From: a virus | Strand: one strand, 5' to 3' | Virus record (IMG/VR): IMGVR_UViG_3300005617_000141 | Coordinates: 1-36,669 of that record | DNA length: 36,669 bases | In this document: positions 28,789 through 30,890 of the stretch, piece after piece | How positions within the stretch are numbered: position 1 is the first letter of the stretch | Layout of the letters: each line of letters starts with the position of its first letter | Position numbers and translations under genes: made by a program | The notes under the pieces: generated by a model | What the model saw: only the letters and a program-made list of their open reading frames with translations | The model's database searches: none | Told to the model about the DNA's origin: nothing

Positions 28789-28836
28789 CCCGACTTCTAT
28801 GCGGGTGTGTTGTGGGTTCGAATCCCGCCGCGGAAG
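28789..28836 (+). other. partial tRNA-Arg(TCT)-like 3' half
   Basis: The sequence keeps the anticodon arm (stem CCCGA/GCGGG with 4 of 5 pairs; loop CTTCTAT, anticodon TCT at 28796-28798), a short variable region and a T-arm with GTGGG-TTCGAAT-CCCGC (28812-28828), followed by CGCGGAA. No matching 5' acceptor or D-arm is found upstream. It cannot fold as a complete tRNA, so it is probably a fragment. Possible origins are an old or foreign attachment site. Confidence 0.6.
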
Positions 28837-28854
28837 CCCGCATCACCTTCCCGC

Positions 28855-28871
28855 GCGGGGCTAGGGGGTGG
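28855..28871 (+). repeat. 17-bp direct repeat, copy 1
   Basis: GCGGGGCTAGGGGGTGG; the same 17 bases recur at 29120-29136. This copy spans the stop codon (TAG on the minus strand) of the gene ending at 28861. The other lies in the next gene's end. It may reflect duplication of a gene tail. Confidence 0.5.
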
Positions 28872-29103: not shown

Positions 29104-29297
29104 CCTTCATCCTTCTCGGGCGGGGCTAGGGGGTGGTATGTCCCGCCCGCAAGAACCTCGTCAATTCGTCCTGCGGTCGCGCGTAGAAAGCCCGAAAGGT
29201 TCGGAATTGGCTCACCGCGCTCAAGGATGGCCGCGATATCGAACATCCTATCCCGCGATAGGACCAGCGCCTCGCTAAACCGCTCCGCGTCGTCCAT
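29100..29297 (-). CDS. small hypothetical protein
   Basis: A leftward 65-residue protein with a strong GGAGG before ATG 29297. It is helical and acidic (DDAERFSEALVLSRDRMFD) with a proline-rich end (YHPLAPPEKDEG). Overlaps the next gene by four bases. No family recognised. Confidence 0.6.
   Translation of the reverse strand: MDDAERFSEALVLSRDRMFDIAAILERGEPIPNLSGFLRATAGRIDEVLAGGTYHPLAPPEKDEG
29120..29136 (+). repeat. 17-bp direct repeat, copy 2
   Basis: GCGGGGCTAGGGGGTGG, identical to 28855-28871, 265 bases downstream of it. In the minus-strand gene it codes within YHPLAPP. Confidence 0.5.
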
Positions 29298-29338
29298 CTA
29301 TACCTCCTTATGGCCGGGGGTGGGGGTGAGAATATCCC

Positions 29339-29359
29339 TGCGGTAAAAGTGCGGTAAAC
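29339..29359 (+). repeat. integrase arm-type repeat pair (left of attP core)
   Basis: Two tandem units TGCGGTAAAA and GTGCGGTAAAC, spaced about one helical turn. The same pair lies at 29535-29556 on the other side of the tRNA-like core. Paired short repeats flanking a core are the hallmark of integrase arm sites. The left pair is about 90 bases from the core. Confidence 0.55.
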
Positions 29360-29448
29360 ATGCCATCGACTCGGGCAATGTTCCCATGCCGTTCGCATTT
29401 GACCGATTCAGAAAACCTATATATTGCCCCGTTTGGGCGGGACGGCGC

Positions 29449-29495
29449 AAGCTTCCCAAGCTTACGACGAGGGTTCGATTCCCTTCACCCGCTCC
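29449..29495 (+). other. attachment site core: 3' half of tRNA-Gly(CCC)
   Basis: This 47-base segment reads as the 3' half of tRNA-Gly: anticodon loop TTCCCAA (anticodon CCC) in a stem of AAGC/GCTT, T-arm GAGGG-TTCGATT-CCCTT and acceptor strand CACCCGC followed by TCC. A matching 5' half is absent. Phages commonly integrate at the 3' end of tRNA genes and carry this copy so that the tRNA is restored. The integrase gene ends 8 bases downstream. Here both flanks are phage genes, so the site is attP or an att junction in tandem DNA. Confidence 0.78.
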
Positions 29496-29502
29496 GCAGT
29501 TT

Positions 29503-30735
29503 TCAGCCATTTTCTGAACTCCCCGCGATTTTTAGTGCGGTAACAGTGCGGTAAACGTCGTTTCCGAACGCCCCCGGCGCCAGCTTTTCAATCTCGTCGA
29601 TGATCGATTCGGTAGCCGCCAGCGCCAGCCCATAATTGGCCGGATCGGGCAGCGCGTAGATGTCGCTGATGCTCGATTTGACATGGCCGAGCCACATTTC
29701 GCCCTGCCGCCAATTTGCCTCTCCGATGCGCGATCGAACCAGTGTCGCCATCGAGCGCCGGATGAGCTTTGGTCCGGCCTCACGGTCGCCCGGCAGGCCA
29801 AGCGCTTTGCGCATATTATCCCACGGCCCCCGGATTAGATCGACGGGCATGTATTTTCCGGCGAAGTCCAGATGCGGCGAAAACTGGCTCGCGATCGGGA
29901 TACGCCCACGATATTTCTTCGTCTGTCGCCGGCCTGGGGGATTGAGATCCAGAACGCGAGCGGCCGGGGCCCATTGCGGGGCTGTCAGGTCGAATATCTC
30001 TTCGGGCCTTGCCCAGGTCGCCACGGCTGCGCGTAGGTAGCGCAGCAGGTTCGTGCGATAGCCTATATAGACTTGACGCTCCTTCTCGCTGCGGATGTTG
30101 GGCCCCTGTGGATCGAGGCAGAACCGGAACATGGCCGCAAGCTCATCCACGGTAGAACGGTGCTTGGGCGACGCCGCCACCGCCTTGGGTTGTTCGGCTG
30201 TGAACTGCGCACGCTGGCCAGGTGTGGCGTTGATAGCGGCTGCGAGCTGGAGAACGCAGCCCTCGACCGCGCCGATAGTGCGAACGCGCGTTGTGCGGCC
30301 CTGAACGACGGGCTTTGCCGAAAGCCATTTCCGGAAGCCGTCGATCCACCGTTGATCAATCTGCGCGCAGGTGACGGCGGGGTTCATGATTGCGAGATAT
30401 TCGACGGCATGGGCCAGCCTGCCCTTGGTCGCCCGGTAGCCAGTCTTGCCTTCGCTCAACAGCAGATAGTCGGCTATGGCGTTGGCAAGCAGGGGACTGG
30501 CCTCTCCGTCGAAGGGTCTACCGCATGTCTCGCAAAAGCGCTGCCCGGTTGCCTGAAGGTACATGCGATCGAGCGCTAGCCGGGCCTGCCCGTTATCGAC
30601 TGTACCCGCCGAAGCGCTGCGCTCACGTCTTGAGGCGCTGTCGTACCAGACGATTTCGTGGTTACGCCCCTCGCGGGCGTAGAGCTTGAAGTCTCCGCGC
30701 TGATAGAGCGGCTTCGGGCGCTTCGTTTTAGGCAC
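29503..30735 (-). CDS. int: tyrosine integrase
   Basis: A leftward 410-residue tyrosine recombinase. The N-terminal half has a strand-rich DFKLYAREGRNHEIVWYD arm domain and a CETCGRP pair that may bind zinc. In the catalytic half I see WARPEEIFDL (Arg box), KKYRGRIPI (Lys), KLIRRSMATLVR (His-x-x-Arg box, with Lys at the His site), WLGH (His) and DIYA (Tyr nucleophile). GTG 30735 is the only reasonable start. It ends beside the tRNA-like attP, so it mediates integration at tRNA-Gly. Confidence 0.9.
   Translation of the reverse strand: MPKTKRPKPLYQRGDFKLYAREGRNHEIVWYDSASRRERSASAGTVDNGQARLALDRMYLQATGQRFCETCGRPFDGEASPLLANAIADYLLLSEGKTGYRATKGRLAHAVEYLAIMNPAVTCAQIDQRWIDGFRKWLSAKPVVQGRTTRVRTIGAVEGCVLQLAAAINATPGQRAQFTAEQPKAVAASPKHRSTVDELAAMFRFCLDPQGPNIRSEKERQVYIGYRTNLLRYLRAAVATWARPEEIFDLTAPQWAPAARVLDLNPPGRRQTKKYRGRIPIASQFSPHLDFAGKYMPVDLIRGPWDNMRKALGLPGDREAGPKLIRRSMATLVRSRIGEANWRQGEMWLGHVKSSISDIYALPDPANYGLALAATESIIDEIEKLAPGAFGNDVYRTVTALKIAGSSENG
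29535..29556 (+). repeat. integrase arm-type repeat pair (right of attP core)
   Basis: Two tandem units GTGCGGTAACA and GTGCGGTAAAC within the 3' end of the integrase gene, 40 bases from the core. It mirrors the pair at 29339-29359. Because this pair lies in coding sequence, chance is less easy to exclude than for the left pair. Confidence 0.5.
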
Positions 30736-30890
30736 TGGTCCCTCTGCATTTCGGTGACGGCCTCGCGGAACTTGGCAATAGCGCCCGTCGCGACAAGCAG
30801 GTCAAGATCGGTCGGCGATAGCTGTATGCTCCGCTCGGACTCGATCTTCCGCGTCAGGCGCCGGTCCAGGTCAAAGATATGCGCTGTCAT
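30576..30890 (-). CDS. hypothetical protein overlapping integrase start
   Basis: A leftward 104-residue protein from ATG 30890 (GAGGGGTAGG precedes it). The first 60 residues (HIFDLDRRLTRKIESERSIQ and VATGAIAKFREAVTEMQRDQ) look like a genuine small helical protein. The last 53 codons lie in the integrase coding region (160-base overlap) and are Ser/Arg-rich. Either the overlap is real or the protein ends early. It may help excision or integration; no excisionase motif was seen. Confidence 0.55.
   Translation of the reverse strand: MTAHIFDLDRRLTRKIESERSIQLSPTDLDLLVATGAIAKFREAVTEMQRDQCLKRSARSRSISAETSSSTPARGVTTKSSGTTAPQDVSAALRRVQSITGRPG

Follow-up and report, generated by a model that had tools for sequence, protein, structure and literature searches.

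A probable lambda-type attP directed to tRNA-Gly(CCC) in an uncultivated temperate phage

In phage lambda, the attP core is an intergenic site, and the xis and int genes overlap. Phage HK022 has the arm specificity of lambda together with a different core, a modularity that corresponds to the pattern described below across five tRNA targets. The attP analysed here resembles that of lambda in having arm sites to either side of its core, an integrase with an N-terminal domain predicted to bind them, and a small gene that lies directly upstream of int and overlaps it. A further likeness is the presence of direct repeats by the far arm, where lambda has its Xis sites (PMC4880445). The differences from lambda are that the core lies in a tRNA anticodon loop rather than between genes, that the arms are tight 11-bp doublets, one of which is inside the 3' coding end of int, that the overlap with the upstream ORF is about 157 nt and its predicted product is all-helical rather than winged-helix, and that the attP has no match to the IHF consensus.

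Three other described systems are close in layout. As described in a study of mycobacteriophage integrases (PMC10865867), putative arm-site pairs flank the attP core and anticodon-loop sites are common; in Omega, the core of 44 bp falls in the tRNA-Leu-CAA 3' half and attL has a functional tRNA, and Fionnbharth has a core of only 10 bp and relies on a phage-encoded tRNA. The mycobacteriophages infect a different host phylum, and the likeness concerns the site layout. In Mesorhizobium, the IntS/RdfS system of ICEMlSym-R7A has several arm motifs in a 283-bp attP, and the RDF binds beside an arm site (PMC11963761). The alphaproteobacterial integrase, the several arm motifs and the RDF site by an arm are points of likeness; the points of difference are five arm motifs of consensus TGKTGGTATC and a winged-helix RDF whose gene is part of a conjugation operon and does not adjoin int. 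Islander class A tDNA islands (PMC4383910) are similar in their anticodon-loop crossover and in the 3' tDNA fragment that marks one end, and differ in that they are grouped by the place of crossover only.

The locus described here is thus of a known kind, a lambda-type attP of the anticodon-loop class. Within the searches made, the integrase family with its arm sequence, the clear decoupling of constant arms from tRNA cores that vary, the GAAC element at its nearly constant spacing and the conserved int-overlapping gene are new; among the literature matches listed, neither an integrase-overlapping RDF gene nor a description of this integrase family is found.

Organization of the attP and its integrase

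The window, the whole stretch of 36,669 bases that was analysed, is a single virus record (IMGVR_UViG_3300005617_000141) and contains terminase, portal and major head protein genes. The core has about 29 kb to its one side and 7 kb to its other, which would be expected of an unintegrated genome. The features of the locus are listed in Table 1.

Table 1. Features of the attP region, in window coordinates
Feature	Position	Strand	Remarks
Far (P-side) arm-type pair, CTGCGGTAA + GTGCGGTAA	29338..29359	.	minus-strand TTACCGC-N4-TTACCGC, units 11 bp apart
Putative excisionase/RDF site, GAAC-N7-GAAC doublet	29380..29394	-	37 bp before far arm pair
attP core, 3' half of tRNA-Gly(CCC), AAGCTTCCCAAGCTTACGACGAGGGTTCGATTCCCTTCACCCGCTCC	29449..29495	+	47 bp
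Near (P'-side) arm-type pair, GTGCGGTAA + GTGCGGTAA	29535..29555	.	in 3' end of integrase frame
Tyrosine integrase	29503..30735	-	410 aa, begins with GTG; arm-binding, core-binding and catalytic domains predicted
Small ORF, candidate excisionase/RDF gene	30576..30890	-	104 aa; directly upstream of int, overlaps its first 157 nt

The original prediction, that tandem repeats lie on both sides of a 47-base tRNA 3' half with an integrase adjoining, agrees with the coordinates, the identity of the repeats and the shuffles. The far-side repeat stretch, TGCGGTAAAAGTGCGGTAAAC at 29339-29359, and the near-side stretch, TGCGGTAACAGTGCGGTAAAC at 29536-29556, are 95% identical. Three of the four arm units are exact copies of GTGCGGTAA (29349-29357, 29535-29543 and 29546-29554), and the fourth is CTGCGGTAA at 29338-29346. 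One correction concerns the right-hand pair, which is situated within the integrase frame and not past its end: the stop codon of int is at 29503-29505, and the near pair falls within the last codons of the gene. The doublet pattern YTACCGCRMYNTTACCGCR (minus strand) has two exact matches in the window, and none of 100 dinucleotide-preserving shuffles has any; with three mismatches allowed, there are three matches against 0.47 expected, a number reached by two of 100 shuffles. Because this pattern was defined after the window and related sites had been seen, its recurrence in relatives is stronger evidence than the shuffle counts.

The core consists of the anticodon stem-loop AAGCTT-CCC-AAGCTT, followed by the T arm and the acceptor strand. 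ARAGORN calls no whole tRNA anywhere in the window, which is what a 3' half alone should give. With arm-type repeats flanking the core and an N-terminal domain predicted to bind arms, the locus has the layout of a lambda-type, heterobivalent system. An IHF consensus, WATCAANNNNTTR, searched as a regular expression with one mismatch allowed, has no match in the window attP; it is found once in each of four of eight attP rows, always on the int side of the core and exactly in two near-identical rows.

From this layout and from the relatives described below, it is highly probable that the locus is the complete lambda-type attP of a temperate phage that integrates at a host tRNA-Gly(CCC) gene. The N-terminal domain of the integrase would bind the TTACCGC doublets on both sides, and its other domains would bind the anticodon-loop core, which would recombine with tRNA-Gly(CCC) of the host. 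The tRNA would be rebuilt with the 3' half that the phage brings, and the displaced host 3' half would come to lie at the far end of the prophage.

Searches of Pfam, PHROGs and NCBIfam gave no match to the integrase at the thresholds applied, and a signal for Phage_int_SAM_5, a core-binding SAM-like family, is observed in seven of 12 relatives (best E 2.9e-5; 0.055 for the window protein). Residues R243, K274, K323-x-x-R326, H351 and Y360 are invariant in 12 of 12 aligned rows, with a lysine in place of the first histidine of H-x-x-R; R243, K274, K323, R326, H351 and Y360 are presumed to fill the catalytic roles of the tyrosine recombinase family, namely Arg, Lys, His/Lys-x-x-Arg, His/Trp and the nucleophile Tyr. 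A structural model built with 12 sequences (mean pLDDT 77) has an N-terminal block of pLDDT 82-94 with predicted strands at residues 11-13, 16-19, 27-32 and 37-42 and a helix at 48-63. Rows 1-13 of the Foldseek output are all tyrosine recombinases, among them the Tn1549 integrase, XerH, XerD, XerA and lambda Int, at a best E of 2.5e-3, with none below 0.001, and at low TM-scores of 0.22-0.29 of the query. The protein is a divergent tyrosine integrase.

Two other elements are observed to the left of the attP. A second tRNA-like piece at 28800-28843, with a T-loop GGGTTCGAATCCC at 28814-28826 within a TGCGGG...CCCGCA stem, is not called as a tRNA by ARAGORN and has no arm repeats seen nearby. 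A 26-base direct repeat, CCTTCCCGCGCGGGGCTAGGGGGTGG, is located at 28846-28871 and 29111-29136, with copies that are 92% identical and 265 bp apart.

The host tRNA-Gly(CCC) site and the Root720 prophage

A scan of a collection of species genomes with the integrase returned a single relative, in Sphingomonas sp. Root720, at 75% identity. The int end of this element adjoins a complete tRNA-Gly(CCC), and the exact 47-mer of the window core occurs twice on the same strand of the same contig, at 74547-74593 and 128605-128651, in direct orientation and 54,058 bp apart, with int just inside the first copy. On the attR side, a GCGGTAA doublet is positioned at -131/-120 from the T-loop motif, compared with -132/-121 in the window. 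From the core copies and the doublet positions, attL is the tRNA rebuilt with the phage 3' half together with the int-side arm, and attR is the displaced 3' half together with the far arm; the intact tRNA and the displaced half are therefore found at the ends where targeting of a tRNA gene would place them. The predicted host site, tRNA-Gly(CCC), is in this way confirmed by a prophage for which both junctions were located. A lysogen of the window phage itself was not found, and attL and attR are known from the Root720 relative. Several of the fetched loci (L003, L013, L014, L029, L066 and L094) all appear to be the Root720 prophage or its IMG/VR copy. Another IMG/VR record, G005 (locus L006), has direct core copies at both of its ends.

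It could be argued that the tRNA half of the window is a relic of a phage tRNA, or a regulatory fragment, with no role in integration, since tRNA-like pieces do occur without an obvious att role, as the second T-loop-like sequence at 28814-28826 illustrates. The attL and attR of the relative lie at the same tRNA with the same arm geometry, however, and the Root720 prophage already contradicts the relic reading, which is hardly credible. The tRNA half is better viewed as the attP core.

A search of candidate hosts, which had been proposed as a check, recovered the exact 47-mer in 58 of the 296 genomes sampled from the order to which Root720 belongs, so many hosts are possible. The phage very probably inserts in tRNA-Gly(CCC) of sphingomonad-type bacteria, and relatives with the same arms dock at other tRNA genes. 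An integration site can thereby be named for an uncultivated temperate phage.

Prophage-free sites were compared in two of the 14 genus genomes searched, G415 and G406. G415 has a tRNA-Gly(CCC) without a prophage, between flanks that share 87% and 76% identity with the DNA on either side of the Root720 prophage; 49 bp match the attR core of Root720 exactly, and the tRNA is then followed by other DNA for about 1.0 kb. In G406, a tRNA-Gly(CCC) also lies between homologous flanks with no prophage, but it is inverted relative to them. The stretch of about 1.09 kb between the Root720 attR and the syntenic flank has no counterpart in G415 or G406. Because of this stretch, the 1.0 kb in G415 and the inversion in G406, the sites with and without a prophage cannot be aligned cleanly base for base.

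Three further observations concern this tRNA and its surroundings. In three genomes of the genus, the DNA adjoining tRNA-Val(GAC) shares 81-85% identity with about 0.9 kb to the right of the Root720 attR (loci L119, L120, L121 and L140), so that this flank must have moved, or been exchanged, between two tRNA hot spots. The inverted tRNA-Gly(CCC) of G406 (L143, 1265-1342) lies in flanks that are otherwise collinear and is a possible trace of past recombination. In Mesorhizobium phage vB_MseS-P1 (L147, PP232116.1), positions 1-45 are identical over 45 bp to the window core and lie beside a tyrosine integrase that is not among the matches of the protein search with the window integrase; distinct integrases thus appear to share tRNA-Gly(CCC) as a target.

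Arm-type doublets and tRNA cores among relatives

All viral contigs were scanned with a two-doublet pattern of 26 specified bases, a scan that finds only contigs with both arm pairs exact and that may leave out the window's own record. It returned seven stretches, all at relatives of the window integrase. In six, the integrase is 44-64% identical to that of the window over most of its length; the seventh, L024, is a cut contig end, and the integrase of its contig is 47% identical. A tRNA 3' half is observed by eye between the doublets in all seven. The repeats accordingly recur beside related integrase genes, as the original prediction had required of true arm sites.

A wider set comprised 58 integrases, from 29 viral loci, 26 genome loci, the window, L027 and phage Mae-JY04, with some loci being second fetches of one contig. 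Removal of rows at least 95% identical to another row (L076, L090, L092 and L094) left 54, and three of these with a truncated or broken N terminus (L098, L105 and L115, with 2, 5 and 0 near-doublet mismatches, respectively) were set aside. The remaining integrases have one of two N-terminal types, assigned from a hand list that was checked against the N-terminal sequences. The short type, to which the window protein belongs, accounts for 33 rows and has 16-18 residues from RG to WYD, for example GRNHEIVWYD; the long type accounts for 18 rows and has 24-25 residues, with an insert.

Near doublets were sought between -110 and +60 nt relative to the stop codon of int. With at most three mismatches in 14, a doublet is present in 30 of the 33 short-type rows versus one of the 18 long-type rows; with at most one mismatch, the counts are 26 of 33 versus 0 of 18. 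For those of the 30 that were shuffle-tested, no more than two of 200 shuffles of the same stretch do equally well. The one long-type exception, L113, has three mismatches, a score reached by none of 200 shuffles, and its doublet may be a related repeat. Three short-type rows have no near doublet. In L065, other genes follow int, and the attR side of that element (locus L018) has the far doublet; L085 has GGACAC-like repeats and a Val(CAC) core, as judged by eye; and in L096, inspection by eye revealed no tRNA core.

Since the near pair lies inside the int frame, its sequence could in principle reflect a conserved C-terminal protein sequence of the integrase, and repressor operators, too, can be short direct repeats. 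The relatives argue against both. In most of them, the near-arm DNA encodes YRxxTA, whereas in L079, L081, L097 and L099 it is read in another frame as GAFTAxLP, and in L115 it follows the int stop codon. The same DNA is therefore read in two frames, so that it is the DNA, and not the peptide, that is conserved, and protein-level conservation was rejected as the source of the repeats. The same doublet, with zero to two mismatches, is also found across the core from int, outside the gene, in 15 far sides, and the arm sequence follows the N-terminal type of the integrase. A coding or operator origin of the near pair is accordingly very improbable, and the arm-site assignment is preferred; the integrase probably binds the TTACCGC doublets. 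Fourfold third-base identity is 0.55 in int codons 389-410 versus 0.40 in codons 60-388 (252 pairs, pooled from non-independent pairs of related sequences, so that no p-value is claimed).

No single helical phase relates the near arm to the core: distances measured by hand of about 60, 74-75, 81-84 and 115 bp fit none convincingly, and a phase rule was rejected.

The cores of these relatives vary. They were identified by ARAGORN for whole tRNAs and by eye from the anticodon loop for half-cores, those of L066 and L072 being taken from their near-duplicates L094 and L092. Among the 33 short-type rows, the core is Gly-CCC in 14, Val-GAC in six, Gly-TCC in two, Ala-GGC in two, Thr-GGT in one (Microcystis phage Mae-JY04) and Val-CAC in one (L085), with none in view in seven. 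In a tree of 27 rows, which predates the last loci added, the window falls in a supported set of 12 rows (98/99) that have Gly cores or no core in view. The distribution of near doublets between the two types (30 of 33 versus one of 18), together with the varied cores, indicates that the arms track the N-terminal domain and not the core; in these sequence comparisons, the arm sequence keeps to the integrase N-terminal type while the core changes across five tRNA targets. Such a natural family, in which arm recognition is constant and the target tRNA changes, would make the core-choosing residues readable from sequence.

Several members deserve mention in their own right. L085 (IMGVR_UViG_3300037420_001448) has the N-terminal domain RHHQIIWYD...CERRL instead of RNHEIVWYD...RERS and is a possible natural switch of arm specificity. 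Other 11-bp-spaced doublets, for example CACCCGAG, CGCCCCGATT, GCGTGCCAG and GCACCCAAG, are found close to the 3' ends of int genes that belong to more distantly related integrases within the order (L042, L046, L048, L053 and others), suggesting that a layout with an arm in the 3' end of int may be wider than the window's integrase family. Mae-JY04 (L145, PP395637.1), a phage recorded on a cyanobacterium, has an integrase of the window type and a tRNA-Thr(GGT) half-core; as the sole match among the species genomes is a Sphingomonas, and the other genome searches covered its order, the host label of Mae-JY04 deserves a check.

A GAAC doublet by the far arm and a small ORF that overlaps int

A GAAC-N7-GAAC doublet with at most one mismatch is present in all 13 non-duplicate far sides (10 attP and three attR) and is perfect in 10; the search took the best match over 20-49 bp, and the one-mismatch cases, L075, L078 and L145, carry less weight than the ten that are perfect. 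The short-type attP of L085, whose arms are changed and which has no TTACCGC pair, lies outside this count. The distance from the GAAC doublet to the first TTACCGC is 37 bp in 10 cases, 38 bp in one and 26 bp in two. When 12 far sides were tested by shuffling at constant composition, 1-14 of 2000 shuffles had a perfect doublet at any position; ten of these far sides have a perfect doublet, and the other two are the near-identical L075 and L076.

By analogy with lambda, the GAAC doublet may be an excisionase site. It is also possible, if on the doubtful side, that it serves a host factor, for example IHF or Fis, or is an additional and weaker site for the integrase, as the spacings of 37 and 26 bp from the arm differ by 11, the period of the arm pairs. 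Against an integrase site, its sequence is unlike TTACCGC, and tandem direct repeats by the far arm suit an Xis-like site better than an IHF site. The lambda Xis sites X1, X1.5 and X2 are placed on the P arm, where they aid Int at P2 (PMC4880445). An excisionase site is the preferred assignment in what follows.

The small ORF begins 155 nt upstream of int and runs 157 nt into it. In all 51 relatives, the +1 frame is open for at least 148 nt into int, and in 49 a start codon is located 146-188 nt upstream of int; the two exceptions, the long-type L106 and L109, have none between -190 and -120, long-type int starts being match starts and hence approximate. Across codons 1-48, the +1 frame is open in all 33 short-type genes, compared with 0-18 of 33 for 48-codon windows of the same frame elsewhere and 4-22 of 33 for the +2 frame. 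About 50 amino acids encoded upstream of int are conserved as well. The frame-openness count took in all 51 relatives with no filter for small-ORF location.

The third bases of int point in the same direction. Fourfold third-base identity, pooled as above, is 0.60 in codons 2-52 versus 0.40 in codons 60-388 for 209 short-type pairs. For the 252 pairs, it is 0.58 in codons 2-52, with bins of 0.63, 0.57 and 0.54 to codon 52, and downstream it is 0.37 in codons 53-75 and 0.37-0.44 to codon 388. The fourfold third bases of int are second codon positions of the overlapping frame. This comparison used 23 of 34 sequences, ten without a located small ORF and L081 being left out.

A structural model of the small ORF product has four helices and no strands, and is confident for approximately residues 1-60 and of low confidence over the overlap half. 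Identification as a winged-helix excisionase was rejected, given the absence of strands from the model and a single Foldseek match at E 6.8. A Pfam scan of 22 members gave scattered weak matches and none for the window ORF; the best, at E 0.0016, is to an unrelated anaphase-promoting-complex family in three of the 22.

These weak family matches, the unconvincing fold match and the low model confidence in the overlap half would be compatible with a chance open frame, kept open by the conserved N terminus of the integrase, particularly as high-GC frames are often open and the overlap region encodes a strongly conserved domain. The openness of the +1 frame in 33 of 33 genes compared with other windows and the +2 frame, the start codon upstream in 49 of 51, the conserved amino acids before int and the fall in fourfold identity from 0.58 to 0.37 and 0.40 make chance unlikely, and a coding role for the small ORF is favored. 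From its place, the gene is a candidate for the excisionase.

A more far-reaching proposal, held tentatively and at somewhat less than even probability, is that int is double-coding at its 5' end. The first 50 or so codons would also encode the C-terminal half of an all-helical RDF of a new kind, which would recognize the GAAC doublet, set one phased step away from the far arm. The RDF, the N-terminal domain, the arm doublets and the GAAC doublet would then travel as a fixed unit, with the core exchanged among at least five tRNA genes. A conserved overlapping gene of this sort can be missed by standard annotation, and it may be the excisionase that the system otherwise lacks. The Mae-JY04 record, the single annotated relative examined, has no CDS annotated at the place of the small ORF, and the frame is open over the same 157 nt.
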